This document shows, in pieces, positions 19,651-61,769 of a DNA stretch of 64,000 bases. The position numbers were made by a program, and so were the translations under genes. This stretch comes from Closterium sp. NIES-65 (Eukaryota; Streptophyta; Zygnematophyceae; Desmidiales; Closteriaceae): contig CANXME010000428.1 of NCBI GenBank assembly GCA_948144175.1, positions 1 through 64,000 on the forward strand, read 5' to 3'. The number at the start of each line of letters is the position of its first letter. The first letter of the stretch is position 1. The notes below the pieces were generated by a model, which was not told the DNA's origin, did not search any database, and saw only the letters and a program-made list of their open reading frames with translations.

Positions 19651-19732
19651 ACCTGCACTGTCTGGTGAGCACAGCACTGCCCTACTGCTACTGCGTGCCC
19701 TTCCCCACTGCTTGCACTGCTAGTCTGTCGTC

Positions 19733-38800: not shown

Positions 38801-40024
38801 CGTCCTGGGAGGACAGAACACGACGAGAGGAGGGGTGGTAAAACTGCCACCCTGGGGCGTCAGTGGGGAAGCCAAGGAAGACACAGGGAGCAGCACGAGG
38901 GGACAGCTTGTCCGCAGACAAGTCGCGGACAAACGCCCGAGATCCCCAGACACGGAACACAGACGCATCGCCAACCTTCCCCGTCCACAGCAAGGCTGGG
39001 GACATCGCAGGCCGAGAGACCCGGGGGTGAAGGTTGAGCTGATGCGCCGCGTACCTCACCGTAAACGGCCACAGAAAATGGGGGGCAGCCGCATGCATCA
39101 TGGACGTACGAGCGACATCCATGACCATGCCAATGCGGCGCTCAGCAATCCCATTTTGCTGTGGTGAGTCCGGAAGCGTGAAGGTCTGGCGGATCCCCCG
39201 TGCACGACAGTAGTCTCGCAGAAGGCGAGAAGAGAACTCTCCGCCTCTGTCAGAGTGCAGACGCAGAACAGGAAAGTCCGAGCCGAAGCTCTTCCTGAGC
39301 TGGAGACGAGCCTCGCGGATCCAGTCGATCAGCACCTCAGTGACCTCACCCTTGCTGCGCAAGGGGAGGACTGTGGTGTAACGCGAGTAGTCGTCAACCA
39401 CCAACAGGAAGTAGCGCTCGTAACCCTGCCCACGGACGGGGGCTGGGCCCCACACATCCATGTGAAGCGTCTGCAGGGGAGCCTCTGTCGGGGGGAAGTG
39501 GGAGGAGTGAGGAGTAGCCCGGAGGCGACCCTCGACACAGGGGACACAGGAAGGTCCTGGCCCGGAGGGGAGAGGAGGGAGAGACTGGGGAAGACCAGAG
39601 ACAAGGACACGGGAAGCCATGCTCCGAAGACGGGGCAAGGAGGGGTGACCAAGACGGTGGTGCCACAGGAGAGTCTCGTGAGACAGGAGGCGACAAGTAC
39701 AGGGGGCAGACTCAGGACCAGACCTGGACGCAGCAGCAAACACCTGACCCGACGCTGCTACCTGACTGGACGCGGGGACAGGAGGAGACTCAGTGGTCAG
39801 GGTGTAGAGGCTCGACCCCGGCCGACGCGAGAACGTGGCCAGGTGCCGGCCTGTGCGTGCGTCCGTGCAGTGGGTCACCCGCTGACTCGCAGGAGTGAAC
39901 TGGTGAACCCCCGCATCCTGTAGGTCTGCACCACTCACCAAGTTCGTCGAGAACGAGGGGAGGTACAGGCCAGACAGGGTGCCCGAGGGGGCAGCCGGAC
40001 ACGGGAGGACAGTGGAGAAGTGAG
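35818..40024 (-). pseudogene. pol: Element C pol: protease remainder, integrase, reverse transcriptase, RNase H
   Basis: Reads from 40024 down. It starts inside the protease region after the active site (PAAPSGTLSGLYLPSFSTNL), then pre-integrase LLWHHRLGHPSLPRL, then integrase with HMDVWGPAPV, SDRGGEFSS and NGIAERRIGM (triad present). A GGAEPGG-type linker lies at about 38640-38360. One missing base near 37434 shifts the frame. Then comes an uninterrupted reverse transcriptase-RNase H stretch of 504 codons (37332-35818), with WIFRVKRPPGSPPVFKARYV, LVYVDDLVFATAD (YVDD intact), HADASWADD and SCEAEIYAG, ending at LPHLLSS. Apart from the shift and the inverted 5' part it looks functional. Confidence 0.9.
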
Positions 40025-41347
40025 CGACTGACGGCTCCCTCCTGACGGCTCTTGCCGTCCCCTTCTACCGGCCCCGCAACTGCACCTGCTGGCCCCGCCG
40101 CTGCACCTACCGGCCCCCCACCACCCACCCCCCCTTTTCCCGTCGCCTGTCGAGGCGACCTGAGGGGGCCGCTTGAGAGGCCAGCAGAGGGGTGGCAGGT
40201 GTGTGGCCTCCCCTGCTTCTCCTCCTCCTTCATCTCCCACTGCAGCAGCCGAGCCGCTCACCTGCAGCAGCCGAGCCGCCCCACAGCCGAGCCGCCCTGC
40301 CGCCGAGCCGCCGGGTCGCTGAGCTGCTTAGCTGCAGTTGCTGCCGAGCCGCCCTGCCGCCAAGCCGCCGAGTCACCGAGCTGCTGAGCTGCAGTTGCTG
40401 CTGAGCCGCCTTGCCGCCGAGCCGCCCGAGTCGCCCGAGCCGCCGAGCCGCCGAACTGCCGAGCCGCTGGGTCGCTGAGCCTACTCTTCCCACCACAGGT
40501 GAGCTCTTGCCCTGCTAGCACACTGCGCGTCGCCTGCTTGCCTGCCTGCCTGCCTTTTGGCTTGCCTGGCTGCCTGCCTCCCTGCTGCTAGTCCTACTCC
40601 TGCTTCTACTTGCGGAGCCACATGCAACCCCAGCGACGCCGGCGTGAGTCCCTCACGCCCCAGCAGCTGCGTGAGTGGTACGCTGGTTGGGGCTGTAGGG
40701 GTGGCGACGCTACTCCTACTACCACTCCTGCTGCTTCTACTCGTGGTGGCGGCCAGATGCAGCTCCCGCGACCCTCTCGCGTGTCTCTCACGCCTCGCCA
40801 GCTTCGTGAGTGGTACGCTCAGAGTGGAGGGTCTCTCAGTGCTGTTCGCTGCTCTTACGTGATTCGCACTGGTACTCGGACTGGTCAGCCTTGTGGGACA
40901 CATAGTCATACACCGTCCCGCTGCTTCGCCCGTCTGAGCGACGCCTGGCGTACCGTGTTTGGCGACGAGGCTGAGCTTCCCGACTGGGTGGAGTTGCTTA
41001 GGCAGAGGGTAGATATATATGCTCTTGACTATGATGCTATTCTCACTGCCATGTATGCATTGCCTACTAGTGCTGACAGTGCCGGTCACCTGTGCGTCCC
41101 GCCTGACCCAGGTATAGGACCTGCTGCTCTAGCTACTGGTGAGGCTGCTGCTCTAGGTGCTAGTGAGTCTGCTTCCTGAGGTGCGGGTGAGGCTGCGCTC
41201 TCAGGTACCGCGTTGGCTTCGGCCTCCCTCACCTTTACACTTGACTCTGGGGCTTCTCGCTCCTTCTTTCGGGACCGCACCACACTCACGCCGCTTGGTC
41301 GGCCGGTTGCAGTCTCCCTGGCTGACCCCTCTGGGGGTCCTGTCCTC
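40025..41347 (+). pseudogene. gag: Inverted gag-protease segment inside element C
   Basis: It lies on the plus strand although element C is on the minus strand. It holds GC-rich GCCGAGCCGCC leader repeats (40240-40480). A shortened Gag from ATG 40622 (MQPQRRRRESLTPQQLREWY) with two QLREWY repeats follows, then the finger CSYVIRTGTRTGQPC...C (C-x13-C-x4-H-x4-C, 40850-40924), a TGA at 41177-41179 and the protease site LDSGASRSFFRDRTTLTPL (about 41233). Similarity to A ends at GGTCCTGTCCTC (41347). The remaining protease sequence continues on the other strand from 40024. The Gag lacks the N-terminal 250 or so residues present in A and B. Confidence 0.85.
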
Positions 41348-41359
41348 GCTCTGATACCA
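41348..41359 (-). promoter_or_regulatory. Primer-binding site of element C
   Basis: In element sense it reads TGGTATCAGAGC, the exact complement expected for the 3' end of initiator tRNA-Met, directly after the LTR. Unlike in A, B and H there is no leader hairpin next to it. The inverted segment starts at the very next base. Confidence 0.9.
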
Positions 41360-41491
41360 TGTGAGAATAAGCGAACAGCAATGAATGAACTAGCAGTGAA
41401 ATGAGTACAAGTAGGAAACCCTAGAATTGTGTACCCCCTATAGGCTAACCCACTGTAGCCTACACAAGCACAGCATATATAATGTTTGACA
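41360..41491 (-). repeat. 5' LTR of element C (132 bp)
   Basis: Same sequence as 35480-35611 apart from one base. Its outer edge abuts the ATTCT target duplication at 41492-41496. Confidence 0.95.
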
Positions 41492-44266: not shown

Positions 44267-45377
44267 CTAGGAACCAGCGGAGGAATTCGCAGAGTTTGCC
44301 GAGATTCACTCGAGATGATGTTGCCAAGCCGATCTGGTTTGAACCTCGGTGTTGGTTTGACTCAATTCGACCCAACAGGTTCAATTCGACTAGTGGACTG
44401 GACTGGTTTGACTTGAGTTCGGTACTTGCTCAGCCCGACCTGAGACTGACCCGAGATGAACCCATAAACAACCCACGTCACTCTCACCACCTACCTCCTC
44501 CTGCCACTGCTCATCCTTCAATAAGAAAGCTGCTGGCACCCAGCAGCCTCGCTACTGGTGACCTCCTGGTGCTGTGCTGGTGGCCCATCATTAGCCCACG
44601 TGCCTATCCCCACCTACCTCCTCCGCCCTTTGCTCATCTAGCAAGTACGCCACCACCTCCAAACCACCCAGCACCCCCGCGGCCTGCCCAGCCTTGCCTC
44701 AACCGTGACCCACAGTCACCTACAAGCATCAAGCAGCCCGCCACCTCTCACTCACTCAAAGCACACCTTCCTTCTTCCTCTACCTGGCCATGCTCAAAAC
44801 CCGCCATAGGGTACCCAGTGGCCCAGCCCCGCCCAGCAATGCGCAGCCCCACCCAGCCTTGCCTGGCACCACAAGAATCACCTACAAGGCAAGGCATCAC
44901 ACCACGAGCCTCCTCTCTCTGCTCCCAGACAAAAACCGCCAAGGGGCTTTCAGCGGCCCGGCTTCCCCCAGCTTCGCCTGCAGCCTGTCATGCACCTCCA
45001 CCACGTCAGCAGCCTCTAGCTAGCATGCTGCTGAGGGGGTGAGCCATGCACTGCGCTATAGAGGCAGGCAGGAGAGTTGGTGGGGCTCAAGTCAGTGTGG
45101 GAGAAGCAGGCGCAGAGCTGGAGTAGGGAGCGGTGGGGGGAGGGAGGGGAAGAAGGGGGAGGGGGGGAACAGGTAAACAGCATAGGGGTTTATGGGAGGG
45201 ATGTGGGGGACAATGTCGCAGGGGCACGGAGTCAGTGGAGTGGAGTAGAAGTCCCCTGGAGTGTGTAAGAGAAGCGGGTGTGGAGCTGGTGGTAAGTGGG
45301 GTCAGGAAGGGAGTCACGGGGCGGAGCATGGGTCACAAGAGCAGTGCGGCCAGCAGCTAGGGGAGCGCAGCAGCGCG
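44267..45377. other. Unassigned DNA between element B and gypsy element F
   Basis: Starts at the broken end of B. 44330-45040 is C/A-rich and open in one frame but has no domain. 45078-45377 is G/A-rich and probably the leader of element F. I find no 5' LTR of F (no TGTCACCGCATATGC) and no 3' LTR of B here. Confidence 0.5.
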
Positions 45378-46433
45378 ATGCGATCGCTGGGCCGGCCGAG
45401 GCGGAGAGAAAAGCGGGACGACTGCGGGTCTCGCTCGCCCGACTGGCGCCACGCGCGGAGAGAGGCTTACGGAGGGGAAAGGCTCTCACCAGAGCGCCGC
45501 CAGCAGCAGAGCCGAAGGGGGGACGCCTGGTTGCCGTCGCCAGAAAGGCGGCCGTGGCGCGAGGCGAGCAGATGGGAGGAGCGGGAGGTGCGCAGGCTGC
45601 TGCCGCCACAGTGGGGACGGGCGGAAGGGTGGGGAGGATCGAGGGAGAGGCGGTACGAGTCAGGCGGAAGTGGCCAAGAGGGCAGAACGGAGGGCGGAAC
45701 GCTGGCGCAAGGGGCAGAGCGGGCGCGGGAGGCTAGAGAGGGTATGCAGAGAGCACGGGCGAGGGAAACAGAGAGGGGTCGGCCGGAAGGGGCCAGCGAA
45801 TCATGGGGAGAGGGGCGAGGGGGTAGCAACGGCACCCCGAGGGTAGAGGTGCCCGCCAGATTCTCAGGTGACCAGCGTGCAGGGCCGACCCTCAAGAACT
45901 ATCTCATGCAGGTGGGGAATGTGCGGTACCGCTGCAACCGGCACCACATGGACCCAATGGACTTCTTCTTGAGTCTGCTGAACACGCCGGAGGGAGAGGC
46001 CGAGACGCTCTACCGCATGAAGATGGAGGAACTGCTGTGGAGGGCGGGGAGGTACGGCGAGGACCCCACCGAGGCATTCTTGGAGCGACTGCAGCGGCAA
46101 TTCCCAGGTCATACGGCAGAGCGCATAAGGGAGTTCTAGGAATTCAACAGGGGCCGGACTGAGTCGCTACTGACCTACTACAACCGGCTGATCAATGTGG
46201 CGGAGGACGTGAGATGCATGGACAGCAGTCTTCTCATCAGCAAGTTTCTGGGGGGCTTGGACGAGGCCTTAGGAGGGGGGCTGAGGATGAGGGTGTATGA
46301 GCTAGGAGCGGATGCAAGCCTGGAGGAGGTGTTCGCTCTGGCTGAGAGAGTGGAGCTCGCACAAAGGAAATTTGAGGCGTATCTTCCCAGGCCAGCAGAG
46401 AGGAGCAGGCGCCAACGTGGGCGGCGGCAATGA
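45378..46433 (+). pseudogene. gag: Element F Gag
   Basis: Begins at ATG 45378 (MRSLGRPRRREKRDDCG) with a long Arg/Glu/Gly-rich N-terminus of about 155 residues. A gypsy-type Gag core follows: PARFSGDQ, LKNYLMQVGNVRYRC, TEAFLERLQRQFPGHTAERI, TESLLTYYNRLINVAEDV, FLGGLDEALGGGLRMRVYEL. A TAG at 46137-46139 falls between REF and EFNRGR and is probably a mutated CAG or TGG. The frame ends at TGA 46431-46433, overlapping the next frame. Confidence 0.75.
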
Positions 46434-47515
46434 TACCAGGAGGAAGAGGGAGAACGGAGGGATGGGGGGAGACAGGGACGGACACGAGGACATGCCACAG
46501 GTGCAGACAGCCAGGCCATCTGCGCAGGGATTGCAAGAACTGTGATGGGTGTGGGAAGCCAGGGCACAGGAAGCGGGAGTGCCCGGATGCAGCCAGGTGT
46601 GAAAGCTGCAAGAGGTAGGGACATGAGGCGAAGGATTGCTACCAGAGGGAAGGGGGGAGTAGGAGGCATCCAGAGGAGCTGCAGCGGCAGATTAGCAGGT
46701 TGCAGGCACAGCTGAGGGCGACCGGGCTGAAGGGGGAGGCAGAGGCCAGGATGTACGCGGGAGATGGGGGAGGAGAGGAGGTGGAGCAGTATGTGCAGTG
46801 TGCTCTCATGGCGTGGAGAGGAAGGGAGGAGATGGGGCTGAGGAGTGGAGGCAAGGATGGCAGGCGGGAGCATGGAAGGAAGGAACAGGTGAAAGGAGAG
46901 AAGCCAGCCAAGCCAGCCCAGGAGCCAGTCCCCGCACGCCATCCCCAAGAGAGGCTGGCATGCCAGACCTCGGTGCTGCTGCTGGAGAAGGGAGCCATGG
47001 AAGTGGAGGGGGTGAAGGTAAAGACAGCCATCGTAGATACAGGTGCGCAGAGTGTGATGTTGGGCAAGGGGATGGCTGAGAGGCTGGGATTGCTGGCACC
47101 GTAGAGGCATGTGGCTAAGGAGATGCTGGTGATGACAGCGGAAGGAGGGGAGCCGAAGTGGATGCCATGCACACGGACGCCCATAGAAGTGACACTGCTG
47201 CCGGGGGGGGGGGAACACGAAACCAAGATCTGCATGAAGTGTGGGATTTCCGAGTCGGAGGACTTTGACGTGCTGGTGGGCACCGAGTTGGTGTATGCGG
47301 TAGGGATGACCATATGCACATGGGCGGAGAAGGTAGAGTTTAGGACTAGATACTTGAAGAGGGAGGGGCCGCTGGGAGAGCTGCCAGTGCAGTTCGTGAA
47401 GGTGGAGCCGAAGAGAGCTTACCAGGCCGTGGGGGAACGGCTGCCGGGGGAGCAAGGAGGGCAGTCAGGGATGGGAGGAGCGCCCATAATGAAGGAGATG
47501 GACAAGCCACAGTAG
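46376..47515 (+). pseudogene. pol: Element F nucleocapsid and protease
   Basis: This frame is -1 relative to Gag and overlaps it at 46376-46433. It holds three CCHC knuckles: CHRCRQPGHLRRDC, CDGCGKPGHRKREC and CESCKR*GHEAKDC, where the star is TAG at 46616-46618 (CAG expected). The aspartic protease shows VKTAIVDTGAQSVMLG (active-site DTGA, near 47035). TAGs at 47102-47104 (AP*RHV) and 47513-47515 (KPQ*QSDW) also interrupt it. Beyond the last TAG the frame runs straight into the methyltransferase. The -1 overlap may be a natural frameshift site or a one-base indel. Confidence 0.8.
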
Positions 47516-48510
47516 CAAAGTGATTGGCAGCAGCCCATCCACCTCGTAGAGCTGTTTGGGGGGATAGGGGCAGGGCTGTCCGCAGTGGTGAGGAATGGGA
47601 TAGCAGTGAAGAGATGGACATATGTGGAGAAGGAAGACGGGGTGAGGAGGATGGCAGAGCACCATGCCAGGAAGCTGCAAGCAGAATTCCCAGACCTGCT
47701 GAATGAGGAAATGATCAGCAAGGCGATGGGGGGGACGATCCACGATGTGAAGGACATAGGCGAGGCCGAGGTGGCGAGCTGGGGGCAGGTGGATCTGCTG
47801 GTAGCAGGGTGGGAATGCCAAGGGGTGTCTTGGGCAGGCAAGGGCAAGGGAGGGGAAGATCACAGGACAGGGTTGCTGAAGGATCTATTCCAAATCATGG
47901 AGTGGCTGCAGGAGAGGCAGGGCAGGGTGGCATACTTACTGGAGAATCTGGACCTGGAGGGAGATAGCAGAGAGCCAATCCGACTGGTGAGGGAAAGAAT
48001 CAGGAAGCAGCTGGGAGAAGGGGTGAGCTGTGATGCGGCCAGAATGGGGTCTTATGCGCACAGGCTCAGAATGTACTGGCAGAATGTGGTCCCTGCCGCG
48101 CAGCTGCAAGCAGAGATAGAGGGGGTGAGGCGAGCAGCAGAGAGGAAGGTGCAAGACATCCTGGCACCAGGGCGGACCCCAGCACCGGTGAGTCGCAAGA
48201 GCTACAGCAGGCACGAGCAGTGCAACCAAGTGGGGCAGGAGAGGCAGGCTCTGCCCACGCTGGTGGCATATGTGGGGGCAGCAGGGTACAATTGGGAAGC
48301 AGGGAAGCCTGGGCCAGGGATGGTGTATGACCATAAGAGAGGGAGATGGGAGGAGCCCACGGCACTAGAGCAGGAGCTGGCTATGGGGTACGGAGAAGAC
48401 GCAACAGCAGCACCTGGGGCAAGTGAAGCGGACAGGAGGAGGGCTCTGGGGAATGCAATGGATGGCCACGTGATGAGGTGGCTGATTCAGCGAATGTGGC
48501 GGGAGACGGA
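47516..48510 (+). CDS. C5-cytosine DNA methyltransferase domain inside the gypsy pol
   Basis: Transfers methyl groups to cytosine in DNA. Motifs in the family order: I, IHLVELFGGIGAGLSAV (about 47535-47585, AdoMet-binding FGGIGAG); II, TYVEKE; IV, DLLVAGWECQGVSWAGKG with the catalytic Cys codon at 47816-47818; VI, AYLLENLDLEG (about 47930-47962); VIII, GSYAHRLRMYWQNV (about 48050-48090); IX-like EEPTALEQELAMGYG; X, RRALGNAMDGHVMRWLIQ (about 48436-48490). The overall pattern (acidic VEKE, RTGLLKDLF, AHRLRMYWQN) is nearest the Dnmt3/DRM style by eye. Position IV has Glu before Cys where Pro is usual. No stop or frameshift lies within the domain, and it continues in frame into reverse transcriptase. 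Retroelement-encoded methyltransferases have been described in charophytes and dinoflagellates. Confidence 0.85.
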
Positions 48511-49404
48511 CATGAGATGGGGGCAGGAGGAAGGGAAAGGAGGGATGAAGGCGGAGCCACGGGGAGCATGGAGCTGCCAGGCAAAGGAGGAGGAGAGCTG
48601 GGTGGTGGGGGAAGCGATGAGCAAGGGGGGAAGGGAGGCCATGCAGGGGCTGCTAGCGAGGCACCGGAAGTGTTTCGCTTTCACCATGCAGAAACTGGGG
48701 AGGTGCAAGGCGAAGGAGATGGAGCTGAAGCTGAGCAGCACAGAACCAGTGTTCCAGCGCAGGAGGAAGATGCTGCCCGGGGATGAGGAGATCTGCAAGG
48801 AGAAGATCAAGGAGCTGCTGGAAGCGGGACTGATTAGGAGATCGGAGTCTGAATATGCCACACCAACAGTGCTGGCAGCCAGGCGAGACCTGACAGGGGA
48901 GGTGCTGAGCAGGAGGATGTGTGGAGACTACAGGGCACTCAACAAAATCACCATAGTAGACAGATACCCGATGCCGATGGCGGAGGAGATCTTTCATAAA
49001 CTGGCAGAGGGGGTGTTCTTCACTACACTGGACCTGCGGCAGGGGTTCAACCAGATCAAGATCAGAGACGAGGACATCAGGAAGACGGCCTTTCATGGGC
49101 CAGACGGGCTGTACAAGTGGTTGTACATGCCATTTAGACTGCGAAACGCATCAGCAGTGTTCCAGAGGGTCATGGACAGCATGCTGCGGGGAGTGGAGTG
49201 CGCGGCCTGCTACATAGACGATGTGGTAATCTTCAGCACCACAGAGCAGCAGCACCTGCAGGATGTGGAGAAGACCCCGGCGGTGATTGAAGCAGCAAGA
49301 CTCACCTGCCACCCTAAGAAGTGCAGATGGGGGGATAAGACAGTGCAGTACCTAGGGTATGAGGTGAAAGGGGGACAAATAGGGATCCAACAGGCCAAGG
49401 TGGA
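48511..49404 (+). pseudogene. pol: Element F reverse transcriptase
   Basis: In frame with the methyltransferase. Visible blocks: LLARHRKCFAFTMQKLGRCK, KIKELLEAGLIRRSESEYA, MCGDYRALNKITIVDRYPMP, FFTTLDLRQGFNQIKI, RKTAFHGPDGLYKWLYMPF, and CAACYIDDVVIFS with the catalytic YIDD at about 49211-49222, then KCRWGDKTVQYLGYEV. MPFRLRNASAVFQR replaces the usual MPFGLxNAPATFQR, so two conserved positions differ. The frame is cut after QQAKVD by the LTR of element G. Confidence 0.9.
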
Positions 49405-49774
49405 TGTGAGAGTACGACGGCTTATGCCAGCTATGCTTGCTTGCCTTTACTTTATCATTCTATTTCTAGCATAGGTTAATTATATGTATGCATGAATTGC
49501 TTGATTTCCTAGGCTAGGTGCTTTCCTATATTTTATTATAGTTATAGCACCGAGCTAGGTTGCGTGCACCGAATTCTGGCTTTCCGGTTGCCACCAAATT
49601 GCCTTCTACCGAGTTCGGAAAGGATCTGTTCGGGACGCTTCGCGACCCGCGGAACCTTCGCGTAACACCTGGTTACGGGGCCTTTGTGTCGAGCCTATAC
49701 ATAGCCTCGTGTTGTATCCGGGTGATTCATTCAATTCACACTCTCTTTTCTGAGCTCGATCCTAGATCCTCACA
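49405..49774 (+). repeat. 5' LTR of element G (about 370 bp)
   Basis: Begins TGTGAGAGTACGACGG and ends ATCCTCACA, so the 6-bp ends TGTGAG/CTCACA are inverted copies. It interrupts the F frame at KVD. No second copy is left for comparison. Confidence 0.7.
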
Positions 49775-49795
49775 CTTGGTAATCAGAGTCTGTTT
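49775..49795 (+). promoter_or_regulatory. Primer-binding site of element G
   Basis: CTTGGTAATCAGAGTCTG follows the LTR and resembles the initiator-tRNA-Met complement with an extra base (TGGTA-ATCAGAG). From here to the gag start near 50206 is a non-coding leader. Confidence 0.5.
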
Positions 49796-50205
49796 GCACG
49801 CGAAGTTTTTCGACCGCTAAAACCTAGCTTTTAAAACTGCGGGGGCGACGACGGAAAGCGCCGATTTTGGGTACGTAAACGAGTTCTGCGCTATTTTCTA
49901 ACGTCCCCCTCGAACCGGTTTTCGAACCCTCCTCAGGTCGAGTGGCGAAAAAGTTGGAATTTCGACCATCGGATCGATTCGAATCTCAACGGCCTCAAGA
50001 ATTTCGCCCAAAAAGGTTGGAATTTGGAGCGTCGGATCGAACTTCTTCTCAACGGCCAAGATCAGACGCGAATTTCGACTAAGGGAGAATAACGCGACCT
50101 ACAGAATCAGCCCTCATCATTTCTGCAGTCAACTCGACTCACAGTAAGATGACCAGCGCCTAAAATTCATATATTTTCATCGCAAATCTTCCTATAAATT
50201 GCCAA

Positions 50206-51537
50206 ATGGAGGAAAACGGTGATAATTCCGTACGGAAACCTACAGAGTTACACACCGACCTGGACCAGACGCGAGCGGCACTCCAGCAAATAGACGAGCT
50301 TTTTGCGAACCAGTCGGCAGCCGCCACGGCAGCAACGAACGTAGCGGCGAAAGCAGCAGCGACGTCAGCGCAGCAGCGGGGACACCGACACTTAACCCAG
50401 CAGCAGCGGCAGCGGCTACAATGAATCTTGAGGCAGCACGTCCGAGGCTACCAGAGACATTCAATCCGAATGCGAGAGACACTGACGTTCATCGATTCAT
50501 TGCGACTCTCGAAATTTACTTCGAGGCCGTTGGCTGTACGACCCCGACACACGATGCAATGCGGATTTGGCTCGCAGCGATACTGTTACAAGGCCCGGCG
50601 CTCGAGTGGATTTACAACAGCAATAAGATCCGAGGCGAGGGGTCATAGACGCAGTTTCGGGAAGCTTTAATTCAACGTTTCGAACCAATCAACTCCAGCT
50701 ACATGGCGCGGCAGCAGATTCATCGGCATAAATAGTTTGGCAGTGAAACACAGTACACGCAGCAAATGGAGAGTCTTTTCAACCGAATTACCGACTTGAC
50801 CGAAGGGGAAAAAATCCAAGCGTATACTGAGGGGCTAAAGATGGAAGTCCGCCGACAGGTGATTGCCGCAAACTACAACAACTACCGCGACATGGTGCGT
50901 GCAGCAGAGAGATTCGATGCGATGTGAACCCGAGACACGACGCCACGTGCCGAACCGATCATTTGGCATGAAGCGATCGGCACCACCCACGACCGCCAAC
51001 CCGATGGATATGGACAAGATCGACGCGAAGCAGCAGCCGACAAAATATAAGAAGTGCGAATTTTGCGGCGCAGCAGGACATCGACTCTTGGCGTTTTGGA
51101 AGTTGAAGAAGGTACTAGCGGAGCTGCAGTACAACAACAGTGAGACATCCTCGATGTCGAAAAAAGGAGGACATGATGGCGCGAATTTAAAACGCCACGA
51201 CTGGTCGGCAACAGGGGAAATCGCCGAGACAAATGGAGGCTTCGCGAAACAAGACTCTGCACCGACCGGGAAACTCCACCCGAACACCCCCGAGAGTAAG
51301 AATATTCCCTCTCGAGGTTTTCAAGCCTTTAAGAAATCCAGGGGAGATTTGGAGGCCAAGAAAAAGCCTTCAGACATTATTCAGGTACCTGAGAAGTTGG
51401 GCAAACTACTCCCGGGCGTTGAAAAGGGTCGTGCGTTCCAAGGAGTTCATATTCTCTCCCCGCAGCACAGTGTTAATGCTCCCCATTGCCCACAGGAGAA
51501 GCCTACACAGCTGCAAAGGCGTAAGGGAAGGTTCTAG
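50206..51537 (+). pseudogene. gag: Element G Gag with damaged zinc knuckle
   Basis: An ATG at 50206 opens MEENGDNSVRKPTEL with LDQTRAALQQIDELF. A frame change occurs before 50421, from where the Gag core reads PRLPETFNPNARDTDVHRFI, FEAVGCTTPTHDAMRIW, FREALIQRFEPINS and MESLFNRITDLTEGEKIQ. TAG at 50646-50648 (S*TQF), TAG at 50733-50735 and TGA at 50925-50927 interrupt it. After a +1 shift follows CEFCGAAGHRLLAFW, a zinc knuckle whose last Cys is Phe. The frame ends at TAG 51535-51537. Confidence 0.75.
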
Positions 51538-51599
51538 GCCAAGACGAAGCTGAATAGGCCTCAGATAAATCCTTCCAACCCTACTCAGCAGCTGATATG

Positions 51600-52510
51600 G
51601 AGTGAGCAGCTTCGAGCGCAGGACCGAGGGATGATCTATTCGACGTACCCTACGATCCTATAAACGAGACCATCTACGGTTACCCGGAACAGCAAAAACC
51701 ACTACTACTAGAGGTGATCTGCAATGGGCGACGCCTCCAGGCAATGGTGGACAGTGGTGCATCCCACTCGGTGTGCGACCGCGGGACGTTGGAGAAAATT
51801 GGAGAATTTTCGGAGGAGACCAAGTTCTCGGCAACAATGGTGGACAGTACGAAACTTCCCATCCACGGCGAAGCATCACTGCAGCTACACATTGGGGCGG
51901 TGAGGTGGAAGCCAACGTTGCCGATCACAAACATCAAGGGTTTAGATTTCATCTTGGGGCGAGATTTCTTGAAGCAGTTCAACCCCGAGATCGACTGGGT
52001 CAACAGGAAGGCGTGCATCTACAACAACGGGAAACGAATGGAGCTGCAAAGATGGACGGATATAGGGAGCGTTCCTGAAACGACACTGGCACGGTTCGAA
52101 CGGACTGTAAACGAGAGTAACACAGGATACTTTGCACTGGTCATGGCAGCAGCAGAGGAGGAGAAGCCGAGTTCGGAGCTATCTGTAGCAGTAAATGAGG
52201 TGTTGGATCAGTACAAGGATATAATGTCTGACGACCTACCCGCAGGCGTACCTCCAGCACACACCCACGAGCACGAGATCATGGAGGAACCAGGTATGAA
52301 ACCCGTCTCACGTGCACCATACCGACTGAGTCCGACCGAACTGACGGATATGAAGAAACAGATAGAATATCTACTGGACCGACAAATCCGCCCATCCACC
52401 TCTCCCTACGGTGCACCAGTTCTCTTCACTCCAAAACCAGACGGCAGTCTACGGATGTGCATCGACTACCGTGCACTGAACAAACAGACAGTTGAAAACA
52501 AATACCCCAT
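51600..52510 (+). pseudogene. pol: Element G protease and first part of reverse transcriptase
   Basis: Protease: [19 protein letters not shown] near 51740-51790, followed by [19 protein letters not shown], typical of gypsy proteases. Reverse transcriptase: [74 protein letters not shown]. The open frame ends at KYPI, where element H is inserted at the CCCAT target. Confidence 0.85.
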
Positions 52511-52768
52511 TGATAGAATTGGAACTGAACTGATTGATTAGGAAAGAAGGCACTAGGCCTTAAGTACAAACGAGGTTGGGATGGGCAAGGCTAGGGAAAA
52601 GATGGGATGGGAATCCTAGAAAATCTCCAATTGGTGAGTTGGCAAATTTGCAGGATTACGAGGGAATCCCAACCAGATAGGGTTGGGATCACAAACTACA
52701 CCCAACCTACAAATAACCTACGCGATATAGAATATAGTACACAAAGTGTTGATAGCCTAATTCTAACA
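52511..52768 (-). repeat. 3' LTR of element H (258 bp)
   Basis: In element sense it begins TGTTAGAATTAGG and ends CAATTCTATCA. It matches 58051-58308 with a small number of differences (for example ATAGAATT versus ATTAAATT at the end). Confidence 0.95.
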
Positions 52769-52789
52769 CACCCCCTAGGCTGCAACACA

Positions 52790-55700
52790 TCAGCCACAAG
52801 GAGGCCCAACACCCATGGCCGAGAGGAGGCGGTAATGATTCTCGCGAACAAGCGGCTTGGTAAACAAGTCAGCAAGGTTGCATTCGGAGGCAATGTGTTC
52901 AGCCTTCAGCTGCTCGCGCTGCACCAGCTCACGAATAAAGTAGTGACGGACTTCAATGTGCTTGGTGCGGCCATAGAAAACGGGGTCTTTGGTGAGATGA
53001 ATGGAGCTCTCGTTGTCACACCAAAGCGTTGGGTGGTGGTTGGGGATACCCCTGTTCTGTCAGCAGGAAGGAGAGCCAACGAGCCTCCTGTGCAGCCATG
53101 GTCCCGGCATACAGCTCTGCCTCACAGGTCGACAGTGAGACGGAGGATGACCGAGTGGAGCGCCAACTTACAACCCCACTGCCAAGGGTAAAGCAATACC
53201 CTTGGGACGAGCGCCGATCACTCTGGTCATCAGCATAGGATGAGTCACTGTACCCCTCAAGGCGAACCGGGGAAGTGCCGCCAAGTGTGAGCACATAATC
53301 CTGTGTGCCTTTGAGATAGCGAAGAACCCGCTTGGCGGCAGACCAATGGTGGCGAGTGAAGCGACCAGGTGCAACGTAGCGGGACAGTACACTGACTGGA
53401 TAGGCTAAGTCTGGTCGAGTGCACATCATCGCGTACATGAGGGATCCCACGAGCTCGGGGTAAGGCTTGTCACAGGGCTCAGATGAGGGAACGGAGGGTG
53501 CAGTGAGTTGGTGTTGCAGAGAGAGTGGGGTGGGCATTGATGCTGCTTCCTGCATCTGGAACCTCGTCAGAACGTTGTTGATGTAAAACTTCTGTGAAAG
53601 GGTGATGGTGCGGGCTGTGCGATCACGTGTGATTTCCATTCCCAAATATTTTGTCAGCTTCCCAAGATCCTTCATGGCCAGATTCTCACCAAGTGCGGTT
53701 TTGACTGTTGCCAGCTCAGTCTGATCCTTGGTGACAAGGATCATGTAATCGACATAAACGAGGATGAAGAACCGGGAGGGTGTTGCTTTGATGAAGAGGC
53801 TGGGGTCAGAGGTGGATGGGTGAAAGTCGAGGGACCCTAAGGTGCTCTTTAGCTTGTTGTGCCATTCCCGGGGAGCTTGCTTGAGGCCATACACTGGCCG
53901 ATTCAGCTTCCATAGTAGTGCCTGGTAGAAAAGGAGTTGGAAATCCTTCGGGCCGCTCCATATAGATTTCCTCTTGAAGGATCCCTTGCAGGGACGCAGA
54001 AGACACATCCATGCAGTCAACCTCCATGTCATCTCGAGCAGCGACATCGAGAAGGGTGCGCAGTATGGGAGGTTTGGCGGTGGGAGAGAATGTCTCAAAG
54101 AAGTCCAGTCCATGCTTTTGGGTAAATCCCTTGGCACAGTACCGGGCTTTGAAGACAGGAAATTCGCCTGGAAGTTGTTTCACCCGAAAGACCCGTTTTC
54201 CCTTCACAATGTTGACGTCGGAGGGAGGAGAGACGTCTGTGAAAGTTCCTGTGTGAACGAAGGCCTCACATTCTGCGACAATGGCCCCCAACCACTGAGC
54301 GGCGTGAGGACCACAGACTGCTTCAGCATAGGTGAGAGGTGTGGGGATGGAGGGGTTGTCGGAGAAATTGAGGGTGGGAGAGTCTGCGATGTCTGGAAAG
54401 AGGAAGCAGAGTGCGTGGATGGCAAAGCCGATATCAATCAACTCCTCATGTGTCTTCAAGGAGGGATGGCATGAGAGAAAAATCACCCCCGACAGGAGGA
54501 GGATTGAGAAAGACGCGAACGGAAAGGGAGAACGGTTGTGGAGGTGTGCGAGAGCGGGTGCGAGAAGCGATGGGTGAGGGAGGTGGGGCCGGAGTAGGCG
54601 CAGCGGAAGGGGAGGTGGGAGTGGGAGGGAGAGTGGAGATAGGATCGGGATCAGGGGTGGGAGCAGGAGGAGGAGGAGCTGGGTGACGGCGTTGGTAGGT
54701 TTTGAGAGGAACGGGCTCGGTAGGAGGAGATGCGAGAGGAGATGGAGGAGGGGTAGCGGAGGAGGGAGGGAGCGAGGGAGACTGTGTGGTACTGGAGGGG
54801 GAAGCGGGTGATGGGGGATCAGAAATGGTGGAGGGAGCGGGAAGAGGAGGAGATGGAGTGTCGGGAAGAGGGAGACTGTCAAAGTCAGCCCAAGTAAGGG
54901 AGGGAGGCGGAGGAGAGGGGGAAGCCTTGGAGGAGGGGTAGAATGGGTGGGACTCATCAAAGTAAACTCCCGACTGCGATAGAGCTTGTTGGTGGAAGGA
55001 TGGAGGAAGAGATAGTCTGGCGAATCTAAGTTGTGCCCGATGTATACGCACGTGATCGTTTTGGGAGCAAGTTTGCCGCCAGCTGCACGACGGGCTTGGG
55101 AGTTGAGGGCATAGGAAGTGCACCCCCATACACGAAGAGGGCGGACGGATGGCTTTTGACTCGTCCATAGCTCAGCGGGGGTGGTGTGGGTGTGATGAGG
55201 ATGGGGATGGAGATTGTGGAGGGCGGCAGCATGAAGCATGGCGTACCCCCAGAGAGAGGGAGGGGCGGAGGCGTGCGTGAGGAGGCAGCGAGCAATCTGC
55301 ACCAATGTACGGTTCCGGCTTTCGGCAATACCGTTCTGTTGGGGAGTATCCGGGAGAGTGAAGGTCTGACGGATACCCTCAGTGGAGCAGTAAGCTTTGA
55401 GAGTGTTGTTGCGGAATTCACCGCCACCGTCAGAGTGAAGGACCTTGATGGTGGTTTTGAAGTGTTTATGAGCCTGCTTTGCCCATTCAATGATGACGCC
55501 TGGGGCTTCGGATTTGGAGGAGAGAAGGTGGACAAACACATAGCGGGGATAGTCATCAATGATGACAAGGAAGTAAAAGTGTCCACCGCGAGAGCGAACA
55601 GGAGCTGGGCCCCAAAGGTCCATGTGCACGCGATCAAGAGGTGCAGTGGAGATGGACTCAGTGGGGGGATGGGGCTGTTCACGAAGCTTGCTCTGTGCAC

Positions 55701-56415
55701 AGTCAAGGCAAGGCGGCCCTAGGGTGGAGGTAGGAGAGGGAAGTGAGGTTGGAAGCCTGTGGAGGAGTTGCTTTGTGGCAAGGTCTGAAAGCGCGCGAAA
55801 GTTGATGTGGCCAAGGCGGTGATGAAAGAGCATGGTTTTGTCGGAAAGGAGGCGGGAGTGACAGGTGGAGGAGTCAAGGGAAGGTAACGGGAGGTTTGTG
55901 AGGGAGCACGTTTGAATGGGAGCTACTACGAGCGTGTATAGGTTGTTGGAGTTGAGAGTGAAGCGGGCTAGATGAATGCCGGTTTTGGCGTCAAAGAGGC
56001 CAAAGTAGTTGACATCGTTGGGAAAGATGGTAATCACTCCTGCTTGTTGGATTTCACTTTGTGCCAGGAGGTTGTGGCGGAGGGTGGGGGCAAAGATGCC
56101 AGTGACTGTGCCCGATGGAAATGCTGGACAAAGAACTGTGGAGGACCCATGGCATTGGATGGAGAAGCTAGAATCGGCTCCGAGGAGTGGGTTGGGAGCC
56201 TGGTAAGGAACGAACGCGGTTTGGTCTTTGAGCACTGTGTGGGTGGCACCACTGTCTAGTATGAACTCGATCCCTTGTGTGTTTGAAACACCGATGTACT
56301 GTGACCCCTTCTCATTAATAAGACCAGCACCTGAGAACAACAGGTTGAGGCAAATATCAGATGGGGTGCTATCAACTGAGGGACTAGGCACCTCCACTGC
56401 CTCGACATAGTTCAC
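52790..56415 (-). pseudogene. pol: Element H pol: protease, integrase, reverse transcriptase, RNase H
   Basis: Reading down from 56415: protease EFILDSGATHTVL; pre-integrase TMLFHHRLGHINF; integrase (RVHMDLWGPAPV, LVIIDDYPRYVFV, HSDGGGEFRNN, QQNGIAESRNRTL); a Pro/Ser-rich linker reached through frame changes near 54990 and 54470; reverse transcriptase (KRVFRVKQLPGEFPVFKARY, FTQKHGLDFFETFSP, VYGLKQAPREWHNKLKS); RNase H (SDSSYADDQSDRRSS, STCEAELYAG, then DNESSIHLTKDPVF after a shift near 53020), ending at TGA 52792-52790. The catalytic motif is FILVYVDYMILVT: YVDY in place of YVDD. Another shift lies near 53920. It cannot encode an active enzyme. Confidence 0.9.
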
Positions 56416-57333
56416 GCGACGGGGTGGGGCCCAGTTGGGAGGGCGCTTGTTGGTGGAGACACCATGGACGTCGTACCACTCATCATCTCGCTTCTTGAAG
56501 CAAGTTGCCTCAAGGTGGTTGGTGCCTCCGCATTTCTGCCCCGCACGTGGGCCTTTCCTAATGATGTAGGGGCATGGGGGAAAGAAGTTGCGCCTTGGTC
56601 CTTATTGGGAGCGGAATGGGATTCCAGGGGTGTAGCGCACAGCATTGACGGATGCTTGGGCTGCAAGGTCCTTTTCGACGGAAAGGAGAGCCGATGCGAC
56701 TTTTTCGAAGGTGAGTTCCTTGGTGGGAAGTTGCTTGAGCATGGAGCTGGTGACATTGTAGGTCGGGGTCAGTCCTACAAGTAGGCCAGCTGCAGGTGCC
56801 TGTTCGGGGAAAATGATCCCAATGTCCTTGAGTTCCTCATGGATGTTGCGGATTTCAGAAATGTAATCTGCCATGCCAGGGCATTCATCAAGGCGGACCT
56901 GGAACATTCGAGGGATGAGGATGGCAACACCCACTGCTGTCTTGTCATGGAAACGGTCCTGGAGGTACTTCCAAATCGCATGAGCGGAGCGAAAGGTGCG
57001 GTAGGATTTGACGAGCTCAACCGGAGTGGTGGTGATGAAAAGCGGCAGTCTGCTGAATCTGCCTGCTCCCACACACTGAAATCAGTCTCGTACTTGGTGG
57101 TCTGAGCGTCAAAAGCGGCCTTCTCTGCGGCAGTGGCGCCTTCGCCAAGGGGATCGGGAGGGAGAGGCATCTTTCCCTTGCCGCGGTTGAGGAGGATGTC
57201 CTTAAGGCAAATCCCCTTCAAGGAGGTGCTTCTCCACCCCATAGCACCATTCTCCAAAGTTGGTGCTCGTGCCGTTGGGAGCGAGGTTGAGAATGATGAG
57301 GTTTCCGACTAGGGTAGAAGTTGAAGTCGCCAT
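56416..57333 (-). pseudogene. gag: Element H Gag with extended zinc finger
   Basis: ATG at 57333 opens MATSTSTLVGNLIILNLAPN and NFGEWCYGVEKHL. At least two frame changes follow before KYETDFSVWEQADS and the UBN2-like core (TPVELVKSYRTFRSAHAIW, KYLQDRFHDKTAVG, EFLxx-type SEIRNIHEELKDIG, PAAGLLVGLTPTYN, SALLSVEKDLAAQ). The end carries CPYIIRKGPRAGQKC followed by GGTNHLEATC (C-x13-C-x4-H-x4-C, 56574-56500), the same unusual spacing as in elements A, B and C. The protease frame follows directly. Confidence 0.8.
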
Positions 57334-57489
57334 TTGCGCGGAGCGCAGCGCTAAAGTCAACGATACGAAGCGGAGCGAAGTTCGTGTGCAGCGCGGCGAT
57401 TTTGAAAATTGATGAAGTCCGAAATGCGGAAATGTGCGATTTTGCCAATAAGATTGCGATTCCTATTCTGCTTCTCTGCTTCGCCGATG

Positions 57490-57775
57490 ACCCCTTTTCT
57501 GCTGCGCTGATGACCTGTTCCGCTGCGCCGCTGACCTGTGCTGCTGTGCCGCTGAACCTGCTCTGCTGCGCCGCTGAACCTGCTCTGCTGCACCGCTGAC
57601 CTGCTCTGCTGCGCCGCTGAACCTGCTCTGCTGCGCCGCTGAACCTGCTCTGCTGCGCCGCTGAACCTGCTCTGCTGCGCCGCTGAACCTGCTCTGCTGC
57701 GCCGCTGACCTGCTCTGCTGCGCCGCTGAACCTGCTCTGCTGCGCCGCTGAACCTGCTCTGCTGCACCAATGAAA
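57490..57775 (-). repeat. Minisatellite in the leader of element H, about 13 units
   Basis: Plus-strand unit CTGCGCCGCTGAACCTGCTCTG (22 bp), with 19-bp variants lacking GAA. It lies between the primer site and the gag start, as the repeat arrays of A, B and C do. Confidence 0.9.
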
Positions 57776-58012
57776 ACCTGCTATAAGTTTTGAATGTGAG
57801 AAAATTACCACGGAAATTTGAAATTTCAGAGCTTACGATGAAGGAAATTGACGGAGAAATGTGCCGCCGTGGAAATCGGAAATGCACGTAGACGGAGCGG
57901 GAAAGCGCTTTTGACCAGTGCGACGGTGTGAAGACAAAAAACACTAAGCAAAGAAGGCGTGAACCGAGAACGCCATAGGCGAGAGGAAGAGAATGATCGC
58001 GACGCCAAGGAT

Positions 58013-58050
58013 CGGATTCCGCGTGAGCGGAATTTGCTAGCTCGATACCA
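58013..58050 (-). promoter_or_regulatory. Primer-binding site and hairpin of element H
   Basis: In sense, TGGTATCGAGCT directly follows the LTR and resembles the initiator-tRNA-Met site. A few bases on, ATTCCGCTCACGCGGAAT forms a perfect 7-bp stem with a 4-base loop. Confidence 0.75.
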
Positions 58051-58308
58051 TGATTAAATTGGAACTAAACTGATTGATTAGGAAAGAAGGCACTAGGCCT
58101 TAAGTACAAACGAGATTGGGATGGGCAAGGCTAGGGAAAAGATGGGATGGGAATCCTAGCAAATCTCCAATTGGTGAGTTGGCAGATTTGCAGGATTACA
58201 AGGGAATCCCAACGAGATAGGGTTGGGATCACAAACTACACCCAACCCGCAAATAACCTACACGATATAGAATATAGTACACAAAGTGTTGATAGCCTAA
58301 TTCTAACA
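58051..58308 (-). repeat. 5' LTR of element H (258 bp)
   Basis: The right-hand copy, next to the primer site. Its outer edge abuts the CCCAT duplication at 58309-58313. Confidence 0.95.
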
Positions 58309-59452
58309 CCCATACCGCGCATAGACGACCTACTGGACCAACTGCGTGGTGCAACAGTCTTTTCGAAGTTGGACCTACGGTCAGGTTACTGGCAGATCAA
58401 GATGACGGACAACTCGATCCACAAGACGGCGTTCCGTACCAGATACGGCTCCTATGAATACTTGGTGATGCCGTTCGGACTCTGCAACGTTCCAGGCGGA
58501 GATGAGTCACATCTTACGACCGCTACTGGACGAGTGCGTAGTGGTGTATCTGGACGACATTCTTATATACTCCAAGAACATGAAGGAGCACGTGGAGCAT
58601 CTGTGGAAGGTGTTCGAGATCCTGCGGAAAAACAAGTTCTACGTGAAGCTGTCGAAGAGTGACTTTGCCCTGAAGAAGGTGCAGTTTCTTGGGCACATGG
58701 TGAGTGACGAGGGCGTACACGTGGACCCGCGGAAGATCGAAACCGTCAAGAAGTGGAAAGTACCAGAGAACGTGAAGGAGTTACAGCAGTTCCTAGGCTT
58801 CGCCAACTACTACAACAGGTTCGTGCCGCAGTACGCTAAGATAGCAGCGCCACTGACCGACCTACTGAAAAATGATACGCCATCCATGACAAGAAAGCCT
58901 TTGCGATAGTCATAGCCTTCAAAGCATGGAGGTGTTACTTAGAGGGAGCCAAGACTACAGTCTATACTGACCACTGCAGTATCAAATACCTGAAGTCGCA
59001 GCCGACGCTCTCACGACGTTAGATGCGGTGGGTGGACTTCCTTGAAACTCACTTCCACTAGGACATCGTCTACAAACCTGGGCTACATAACAAGGCAGAC
59101 GTGTTGAGCCGCCCTGGACATGTAGCAGGCATCCAGCTCGACGGGATGAACCCTTTGCTCAAGGGTCTATTCAAACATGGGTACTCCGTGGACGCAGAAA
59201 TCGCTACAGCACTGACCAAGAAATTGTTACAGTGGGAGAAAGACTTAGCTTTAAGAAAGGGTTCAGGAAAGATTTGGGTACCAAATTACGCCCCGCTACG
59301 GCAGATCCTATTGGAGGAGTTTTCACGACGTACCTTACGCGGGACATTTCAGGACCAACAAGACGTTAGCAGGGATAGCGAAGTATTACTACTGGCCCGG
59401 GATGGCAGCAAACGTGCAGCAGTTCGTCACCTCCTGCGATACGTGCCAGCGG
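58309..59452 (+). pseudogene. pol: Element G reverse transcriptase remainder, RNase H and integrase zinc domain
   Basis: It continues the RT frame: [52 protein letters not shown] frame change and small loss follow near 58495. Then comes [17 protein letters not shown] (YLDD, near 58540), then FVKLSKS-like [20 protein letters not shown], then LQQFLGFANYYNRFVP. RNase H is reduced: CSIKYLKSQPTLS with a TAG near 59020, then YKPGLHNKADVLSRPG. The integrase zinc domain (HF...CDTCQR, near 59330-59440) follows, with its His part out of frame. It ends where F sequence begins. Confidence 0.8.
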
Positions 59453-61033
59453 GTGTACCTGCGGGGAAGGGAATTCACCTTAGTGACAGACCACCAGCCC
59501 CTGACGTGGCTGATGACAACCCCGGGACTAACGGGCAGGAATGCAAGATGGGCGATGAAGCTGTAGGAGTATGACTTCAAGATTAGGCATAGGCCAGGAA
59601 AAACAGTGCAATACGTGGATGGCCTCTCACGGAACCCGCCGCCGCTCGAGCCCACTGTGACCTTGACAATGCTGGCCAGATTAGTGGAGCAAAACGAGGC
59701 CAATGAGGGGAAGGGGCCAGCAGAGATTTGGGAGGACGAACCGGCCATGCGATGGGTGAAGGGAGAGACAGGAGAGGACAAAGCGCTGCCGGCACGGGTG
59801 AGGGCAAGGGGCCAGCATTACAGGTGGTACCAGCAGCAGTTGCAGGTGCAGACAGAGGACGGATGGAAGCTGGTGCCAGCCCCAAGCGAGAGAGAAGCAG
59901 TGATTAAGGAAGTCCACACCAAGCTAGGGCACTTTGGGCATGAGAGGACAGTGCAGCTGTTGAAGACAGGGAGGTGGTGGGAGGGGATGCGGAGGCAAGT
60001 TAAGGGGTGGGTGGAGGGTTGTGAGGCATGCCAAAGGAGCAGGGCAAACCTCACCCAAGCCAAGGCGGATTTGCAGTCGCTGCCCATCCGAGGCCTCGGC
60101 TTCCGATGGTCCTTAGACCTGGCGGGGGAGCTGCCACTGAGCCGTGGGGGGAAACAGTACAAAGTGCTCATGGTCGAACATGTGAGCAAGTAGCTGGAGG
60201 TAAGAGCGATCCCGAGCAAGTGCTCCAGACACGTGGCAGCAGCGTTCAAGGAACAAGTGTTGTGCAGGTTCGGGGTATGTGCAAAGGTCCTAACAGATCA
60301 AGGGACAGAGTTCCAGGGGGAGTTGAAGGGGATGCTGGAGGATACTGGGATCACCCACAGGCGCACTTCGCGGTACCACCCACAGAGCAATGGGCTGACT
60401 GAGCGACTGGTCCAGACCTTGAAGCGGGGACTGCGAGCATACGGGGAAAAGAGGAAGCGGGACTGGGACGAGGAGCTGCATTGGATAGCAGCAGGGTACA
60501 GATTTGGGAAGCAGGTGGCGCTGAGAGATCACTCCCCTTATAGTCTCCTATATGGGTGTGAGCCGCTGCTGCCGGTGGGAGCAACCCGGGTCCTCACAGA
60601 CACTGTGACTACAGGGACGATAGAGAAGTGGGTGGCGCTGTTCGAGACCAAGGCAAGATACCTACGAGTGATGATGCCAGCGGCATTGGAGAATCTCCAC
60701 ACCGCACAGCTGCGGGATGCTCGGAGATATGAGCAAAGGCAACAGCAAGGGGCCGGGGGCAGACCCAGGAAGGGAGTGAGTCAGGGGCAAGAAGTGTACT
60801 TGAAGCGGGCAAAGCAAGACACGCTGGATGTTGGGGTGGGCACGGAGAGGTGGAGGGTGAAGGAGGTCCATTCCTCAAGGGTGTTGGTTCTGGAAAATGA
60901 CACAGGGGCACTCCTGAAGAAGCACCAGAGCAATACGGACATGGTGAGGGGGAGCAAGCCTCACCAAGCGGGTCCTATGACTCGGCCCCAGGCAGCTAGA
61001 GCACGAGCACAGGAGGGGGTAGTGGGTAGGTGA
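59453..61033 (+). pseudogene. pol: Element F RNase H remainder and integrase
   Basis: RNase H: VYLRGREFTLVTDHQPLTWL, then TAG 59564-59566 (KL*EYDFKIRHRPGK, where Gln is usual), then YVDGLSRNPPP. Integrase: zinc domain HTKLGHFGHERTVQLL...CEACQRSR (HHCC); core WSLDLAGELPLSRGGKQYKV, TAG 60191-60193 (HVSK*LEV, where Trp is usual), VLTDQGTEFQGELKG and YHPQSNGLTERLVQTLK (D, D and E present). The C-terminal region has VSQGQEVYLKRAKQD. No chromodomain is visible. Ends near TGA 61031-61033. Confidence 0.85.
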
Positions 61034-61769
61034 GGCTGTGCAACAGGGAGAAGGAGGAAACAGGAGAGTCGGCATGAGAAGAACAAGTGCAGGAAGAAGA
61101 GCAGGTGCAAGGTGAAGAGCAGGTGCAGGGTGAAGAGGAGGTGCATGAAGAAGAGCGGCGGCTGAGAGGAGGAAGGTTCTCCGACAGCTGTCACCGCATA
61201 TGCACTTAATGCATATGCAATAACAGTAGAATGATGGTATAGTGTGGGCTTCATACTAATTCCATAGGAAGATGAGATAGGAATAAGAATATAAGTAATA
61301 GGTGTCGGATGTAGCGAAGTTACTATTAGGCGCGAGGGTGTAGAAGGGGGGAAACAGGATAAAAGCGGTTGAGATAAAAAGGGGGAAAGACTCCGAAGGG
61401 CGAAATGTGAAACCAATGAACCCCAACCCAGAGCCGCACATTTGGAAATGTGCAGCCAGGGGTAGGGTAAGGTCACTCACCTCCAACCCATCAATGCTTT
61501 CTCGTTGTTATTCTCTCGAACTAGTGGAAGTAGCTGTTTCACGCTCTAGCACTCTACAGCCCAACACTGAGAGGGAACCTACGGAGTGAAGGACAAGGCT
61601 CATTGGGTAACTGAGGCTGTGCAACAGGGAGAAGGAGGAAACAGGAGAGTCGGCATGAGAAGAACAGGTGCAGGAAAAAGAGCAGGTGCAGGGTGAAGAT
61701 CAGGTGCAGGGTGAAGAGGAGGTGCATGAAGAAGAGCGGCGGCTGAGAGGAGGAAGGTTCTCCGACAGC
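61032..61769 (+). repeat. Direct repeat of about 157 bp flanking the F LTR
   Basis: 61032-61188 and 61608-61769 are nearly identical (both start TGAGGCTGTGCAACAGGGAG and end GGTTCTCCGACAGC). Inside each are 18-bp sub-repeats of the GAAGAGCAGGTGCAGGGT kind. The first copy precedes the LTR and the second follows it after about 12 bases. Confidence 0.85.
61189..61595 (+). repeat. Probable 3' LTR of element F (407 bp)
   Basis: Begins TGTCACCGCATATGC and ends GTGAAGGACA (TGTC/GACA ends). It contains GATAAAAAGG, a TATA-like word. It sits just downstream of pol and its purine-rich tail. The call rests on position and ends only, as no second copy exists here. Confidence 0.5.

Follow-up and report, generated by a model that had tools for sequence, protein, structure and literature searches.

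A predicted Dnmt3-type methyltransferase carried by a Ty3/gypsy retrotransposon family with unusual ends in Closterium

The window, a stretch of 64,000 nucleotides of Closterium sp. NIES-65 (contig C428, GenBank CANXME010000428.1), holds a dead copy of a Ty3/gypsy retrotransposon from a large Closterium family in which a Dnmt3-type DNA methyltransferase (DNMT) domain is located between the protease and the reverse transcriptase (RT). Taken whole, the data are probably best explained by a family of the KnitGypsy-Dnmt3 kind, in which a DNA circle would be reopened by the integrase of the element and the methyltransferase would methylate the element's own new DNA. A genome paper exists for this strain (PMC10407611), and the host genome was searched as an assembly of 874 Mb.

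The central part of the window copy (45521..49404, forward strand, as are all coding parts described here) comprises the end of gag, the protease, the DNMT and the RT in decayed form. It matches copies L035 and L032 at 90% over 3.9 kb in blastn, and Pfam identifies the protease, the DNMT (PF00145) and the RT (RVT_1, E 2.2e-25). The protease active site, DTGA, lies at 47036..47047 and the YIDD box of the RT at 49211..49222. The sequence-only reading had described one continuous frame from protease to RT; this is true of the DNMT and RT, which are spanned by the open frame 47516-49474, but two in-frame stops, one 3' of the protease (47102..47104) and one immediately 5' of the DNMT segment (47513..47515), separate the protease from the DNMT. 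Other copies, such as L031, are open from gag through integrase. The upstream frame 45249-46139 differs from that of the DNMT, which marks a frameshift, and gave no match in a Pfam scan.

The element extends past the RT, and its 3' part is found at 59451-61767, beyond a foreign insertion (49405..59450) that splits it. This insertion contains other gypsy- and copia-type elements, named by eye from their open reading frames, and is absent from the L035/L032 match between the flanking matched blocks; by comparison with these two copies, the element also lacks about 410 bp there. The decayed RNase H tail and integrase (59451..61021), recognised by blastn to L035/L032 and by reading of the end, carry a TDQG box at 60293 and terminate in the purine tract AGGAGGGGG. 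Repeat comparison then places repeat B1 at 61022..61186, with GACA as its last bases, repeat A2 at 61189..61600, starting with TGTCACCG and with an approximate 3' border, and repeat B2 at 61601..61767, with an approximate 5' border and the last bases CCGACA, which form the 3' end of the element. The palindrome GACAGCTGTC (61183..61192) spans the B1|A2 joint; it has the same sequence as in other copies and is a proposed integrase site with abutted ends and a 2-bp GC spacer. The 5' repeat of this copy was searched for and not found. With in-frame stops and a frameshift as well, and split by a nested insertion, the window copy is dead. Contig C512 carries a stretch identical to the window DNMT. 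The 3' part of the element, the host-wide family and the unusual ends had been missed in the sequence-only reading.

The DNMT domain, predicted to be of Dnmt3 type, occupies 47516..48508 and has 331 residues. The motifs that had been read from the sequence, together with the catalytic Cys, are all located in the frame 47516-49474 in the order I (LVELFGGIGAGL, 47543-47578), IV (AGWECQGVS, with the catalytic Cys, 47804..47830), VI (LLENLD, 47936-47953), VIII (AHRLRMYW, 48056-48079) and X (LGNAMDGHVMRWL, 48446-48484), with the customary motif numbers. This is the order of Dnmt3, not permuted as in DRM. The Pfam profile PF00145 matches 55 residues at E 2.3e-5, passing its cut-off narrowly (24.4 against 22 bits). 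A profile built from 15 sequences finds DNMT3A first among PDB chains (E 7.4e-22) and DNMT3B next; the best chains other than DNMT3 are 4onj (2e-7), a DRM labelled 'DNA methyltransferase', HhaI (6e-7) and DRM2 (4e-5). The AF2 model of the domain has a pLDDT of 91.1 and a pTM of 0.90, and the best 50 of its 192 Foldseek matches (E<=0.001) are all DNMT3 entries, with 6f57_D at the top (E 7.4e-18). Since profile, model and Foldseek matches agree, the domain is not a chance match, and by profile, fold and motif order it belongs with Dnmt3A/B and not with plant DRM.

A domain scoring below the profile cut-off, or genome copies that betray a separate insertion, had been named as grounds for doubting a gypsy element with its own C5 methyltransferase. 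The domain lies above the cut-off and other genome copies keep it at the same place, and the claim holds. It was scored at 121 places in the host genome, out of 1513 first-look candidates, with 74-100% identity, and this number rules out both a chance match and a separate insertion of a host gene. Of the 121 scored copies, 17 lie in frames of 2,440-2,492 codons without a stop. The PF00145 profile itself gave 123 scored matches in the host genome, cellular and element genes together. The single 2463-codon frame of L031, scanned for domains in five pieces, encodes gag with a CCHC zinc knuckle, protease, DNMT, RT, RNase H, H2C2 and an rve integrase; no tyrosine recombinase matched at E<=0.01 in these five pieces. 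A script found the DDE triad, with 35 positions from the second Asp to the Glu, in four of five copies. Protein relatives were named from Closterium strains NIES-53, NIES-54, NIES-64, NIES-65, NIES-68 and Naga37s-1, and viral contigs scanned with A1 gave 38 pattern matches and zero relatives. L031 is surrounded by an array of 71-bp tandem repeats (1-1182 and 9478-10000 of the oriented sequence), so that its borders are closely fixed.

Closterium is a member of the Zygnematophyceae, a class of algae other than that of Klebsormidium. Its family shares with KnitGypsy-Dnmt3 of Klebsormidium nitens an intronless, non-permuted Dnmt3-type DNMT within a gypsy polyprotein, purifying selection, and a DIRS-like repeat arrangement combined with gypsy domains (PMC5890265, Fig. 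4 legend). The gypsy pol with RVT_1, RNase H, H2C2 and rve that belongs to this kind is present in L031, and the DNMT follows the protease. The K. nitens protein KFL_013780020 (P0081) likewise has the order CCHC-protease-DNMT. This bears out the suggestion that the window holds the same kind of system as other charophyte retroelement methyltransferases, and it removes the idea of a new insertion site in pol. The P0081 sequence terminates shortly past its DNMT, whereas the Closterium frame continues through the integrase. The copies in K. nitens are described as 'fewer' than in Symbiodinium in the portion of PMC5890265 available to us.

A quick tree was built from 40 of the 65 domains with enough coverage and was rooted on a single distant outgroup, DNMT3A; its support is modest. 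The Closterium rows form one clade (SH-aLRT 99), with the K. nitens clade as its sister (86) within a group having the DNMT after the protease (80). The proposed 'new family' therefore stands as a Closterium clade but not in any wider sense, given the weak grouping with the K. nitens clade. Environmental proteins that carry the DNMT after RNase H and before the integrase fall outside the protease-DNMT group. Domain positions were labelled by domain scan for P0031, P0070, P0073, P0076, P0079, P0081 and P0084, and from domain lists or by eye for the rest. Three metagenome gypsy polyproteins, P0073, P0076 and P0084, have the order RT, RNase H, DNMT, integrase and PHD finger, a different place for the DNMT from that in Closterium and K. 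nitens, and the PHD finger was present in all three scanned; the DNMT of P0084 was found by our own profile and not by Pfam.

SymbioDIRS-Dnmt3 and SymbioLINE-Dnmt of Symbiodinium are likewise DNMTs borne by retrotransposons, but of other classes than the Closterium gypsy family, namely a tyrosine-recombinase DIRS with repeats ordered A-coding-B-A-B and a LINE (PMC5890265). Gypsy and DIRS elements encoding DCM have also been reported in stramenopiles, red and green algae and charophytes, according to the accessible part of a review (PMC6338049).

For the estimates of selection, matches other than 993 bp long were removed, then identical ones (27 to 23 unique), then those not open through the RT, leaving eight open copies; pairs were retained only where dS exceeded 0.02 and the ratio was defined. 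The median dN/dS of the DNMT in these copies is 0.135 (interquartile range 0.097-0.143, range 0.063-0.763, 21 of 28 pairs), and it lies below the Ka/Ks of 0.2 that bounds the KnitGypsy-Dnmt3 kind. The corresponding medians are 0.064 for linker plus RT (20 pairs) and 0.038 for the RT (19 pairs). These values show purifying selection on the DNMT, which is kept less tightly than the RT. When all 94 usable pairs with a stop-free DNMT are taken, the median rises to 0.167, with an upper quartile of 0.335 and a maximum of 0.994, the signal of selection being diluted by dead copies.

A sequence trace of methylation was sought in the DNMT region of copies 95-99.99% identical, in 134 non-independent pairs. 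Transitions per site are 0.042 in CG, 0.018 in CHG and 0.010 in CHH contexts, and transversions are 0.0138, 0.0076 and 0.0037, respectively. The excess of CG transitions was rejected as a mark of methylation, because transversions show the same context bias and are raised at CG just as much, which methylation by itself would not bring about. The observed/expected ratio of CpG is 0.75 for the whole of L031, 0.51 and 0.50 for the two parts of the old window copy, and 0.60-0.87 along the window in 8-kb steps.

C5 methyltransferases have Pro-Cys in motif IV. This pair is present in P0081 of K. nitens and in several environmental relatives, whereas Glu-Cys is found in the window copy, in 27/27 host copies and in every Closterium protein with a readable motif IV except P0001, which has Asp-Cys. 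Many environmental relatives also show Glu-Cys. In L031 and L036, moreover, the Asn of motif VI is replaced by His. These replacements could mean that DNA methylation activity is altered or lost, and the domain may no longer methylate DNA and may serve pol instead by binding RNA or DNA or by methylating RNA. Such a change is possible, if on balance rather doubtful. It agrees with the lack of a clean methylation mark in the copies and with the behaviour of KnitGypsy-Dnmt3, which gave no methylation in yeast, a result that its authors call inconclusive (PMC5890265). Against it, the catalytic Cys, the Glu and the Arg-x-Arg are invariant in a 15-row alignment. PMC5890265 reports de novo CG methylation by the SymbioDIRS-Dnmt3 enzymes in yeast.

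The long copies of the family are built as A-ORF-B-GC-A-x-B; they have TG...CA termini and are flanked by 4-bp duplications of the target. In oriented L031, L032, L035 and L036 the order is A1-ORF-B1-A2-B2; all four start with TGTCACCG and finish with CGACA, and their target duplications are ATAC, GTCT, CAGC and ACCA, respectively. Eighteen further 5' ends were read; the one on C1731 has no 3' end and stands outside the count, and the other 17 have a 3' end and all show a 4-bp duplication without mismatch (16 read by script; C418, ACAT, by hand, the script having taken a third B). Overall, the duplication is exact in 22/22 copies with both ends read, at 20 distinct sites. For the 3' ends, 40 were scored, 30 fetched and 27 contained B1; with duplicated insertions counted, B1 starts immediately after GGAGGGGGCA in 27/27, and the B1-GC-A2 joint is GACAGCTGTC in 27/27 and in 5/5 of a second set. 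Shorter A-ORF-B copies also have duplications (GAGT in C667, TAAC in C1637 and GAGG in L033), and L088 resembles them at its 3' end. Lone A-x-B units have a target duplication in two of three cases (L061 and L062, none in L063). The arrangement with B-GC ahead of A1 (A-x-B-GC-A-ORF-B) was seen in 0/23 copies read at the 5' end, representing 21 sites. No tRNA primer site, and no TGG-type one, was recognised by eye after A1.

At the border between A1 and the leader of L031, L032, L035 and L036, a CTTTC close to the A1 terminus could form a small hairpin with a GAAAG a little further on; L033 is without the GAAAG. At C1731:1632936-1634875 (G000), the start of an A-ORF copy is accompanied by a lone A-x-B on the opposite strand about 0.9 kb away, a possible rearrangement.

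Standard LTR retrotransposons combine a DDE integrase and target duplications of 4-6 bp, both of which are found here, with the same LTR at both ends, which is not: the 5' end is A and the 3' end is B-GC-A-x-B. A tyrosine-recombinase DIRS element was also considered and is ruled out by the 4-bp duplications and by the absence of a recombinase match at E<=0.01 in the five scanned pieces of L031.

The joint x between A and B varies from insertion to insertion. After removal of 8 of 27 loci as duplicates of the same insertion, with L064-L066 kept separate, 19 independent insertions of the L031 type have 14 distinct sequences at x, or 12 if two single substitutions in the tail of A are set aside. 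Variation is confined to a single point, where 0-3 bases are added, a few are lost or, in one case, 26 are lost. In the 433 bp of A and B together, the other 18 L031-type insertions have only 13 differences in all from L037. Five copies of the L033 type read AT, none, none, C and C at x, and L064-L066, about 90% like L031, have three different joints in three copies. Because x varies while A and B are nearly identical, we infer that x is formed afresh with every insertion rather than inherited.

A specific proposal for these ends, offered tentatively and at a little under an even chance, is that this gypsy-type element integrates from circular cDNA at GACA-GC-TGTC, that every long copy therefore keeps a fossil two-LTR joint, and that the Dnmt3 methylates the circle. 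In the broader reading, which is probable, reverse transcription would produce linear cDNA whose replicative LTR is B-GC-A, since B starts just after the purine tract and A runs up to the leader. The two blunt ends of the LTR would then be joined imprecisely into a circle with scar x, and A|B would be their meeting point, as it is in two-LTR circles. The integrase of the element, a DDE enzyme, would open the circle at the palindrome inside one LTR, the GC would be dropped, and TGTC...GACA would be inserted with a 4-bp duplication, a single cut yielding both ends. A one-LTR circle opened likewise would give the shorter A-ORF-B copies, which could alternatively come from B1 x B2 recombination, as the solo A-x-B units could from A1 x A2 recombination. 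A symmetric two-LTR circle has two palindromes, yet only one opening is seen, and this counts against the circle model. More tentatively, the methyltransferase, made as part of pol, would be carried along with RT and integrase and might act on the new DNA of the element, linear or circular, before or at insertion. Such methylation would mark the new DNA as host-like or pre-silence it, and copies retaining the DNMT domain would be favoured.

The A|B joint might instead result from template jumps of the RT with untemplated bases, followed by linear integration and without end-joining of a circle. RT jumps can add bases, and they could explain the single orientation (0/23 the other way). This origin is nevertheless unlikely, since the joined points are the two ends of the replicative LTR, on the purine tract side and the leader side, as in two-LTR circles, and the A-ORF-B copies would need a separate explanation. 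More improbable still is an ordinary LTR element with the LTR A-B, whose 5' B was lost long ago and which replicates linearly with x as a mutable spot. The TG...CA ends of A2-x-B2, and its solo occurrence with target duplications in two of three cases, fit such an LTR, but B1 precedes A2 directly behind the purine tract, and x varies among the 19 insertions despite the near identity of A and B. In addition, since the ends of an LTR element share one template, an element lacking B at its 5' end would have to regain it in every round. It is scarcely credible that the methyltransferase works for the host, or is a domesticated host gene, and came to lie in the element by chance: purifying selection by itself does not tell whether host or element benefits, but the 121 scored copies, the relatives in several Closterium strains and the same place after the protease in K. 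nitens argue against it.

The proposed opening of the Closterium circle has a parallel in bacterial insertion sequences of the IS3/IS911 type. These are DNA transposons with a DDE recombinase related to retroviral integrase, and they form a circle in which the inverted ends abut across a short spacer and which is reopened for insertion. REM1 of Chlamydomonas (Perez-Alegre 2005) is counted here among the closest known systems. PAT, Ngaro and VIPER elements have the same order of terminal repeats as the Closterium family, A1-ORF-B1-A2-B2, but encode a tyrosine recombinase where the latter has a DDE integrase and 4-bp duplications (PMC6681497, PMC8969392, as far as consulted).

The kind of element is already known, including DIRS-like repeats with gypsy domains, from PMC5890265; its main text has no mention of a target site, palindrome, circle or junction, and refers to target site duplication for the LINE only. 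What is new, as far as checked, is that such a family exists in Closterium and at this size, that its motif IV carries Glu-Cys, that 4-bp duplications go together with a palindrome inside the element, and that one joint differs from insertion to insertion. No paper on a methyltransferase-carrying retrotransposon of Closterium was found; the literature searches covered open-licence PMC papers, so the circle reading may be published elsewhere.

Methyltransferase-carrying gypsy elements are thus not an oddity of Klebsormidium, as a sizeable family with nearly identical copies is present in Closterium. This culturable algal relative of land plants offers a system for asking how an element profits from carrying a Dnmt3 itself. 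The use of two-LTR circles as integration substrates is a long-abandoned idea from retrovirus work. If the integrase does open end-joined circles, the family would provide a natural example of them, readable from genome sequence alone and open to test with one enzyme and one 10-bp site. It would be a third route of integration for reverse-transcribing elements, in addition to the use of linear cDNA by integrase and of circles by tyrosine recombinase.

Two other regions of the window, 18430-25949 and 35480-41491, are bounded by pairs of terminal repeats of about 130 bp that are 98-99% identical. These are ordinary-looking elements, and their repeats contrast with the split ends of the DNMT element.
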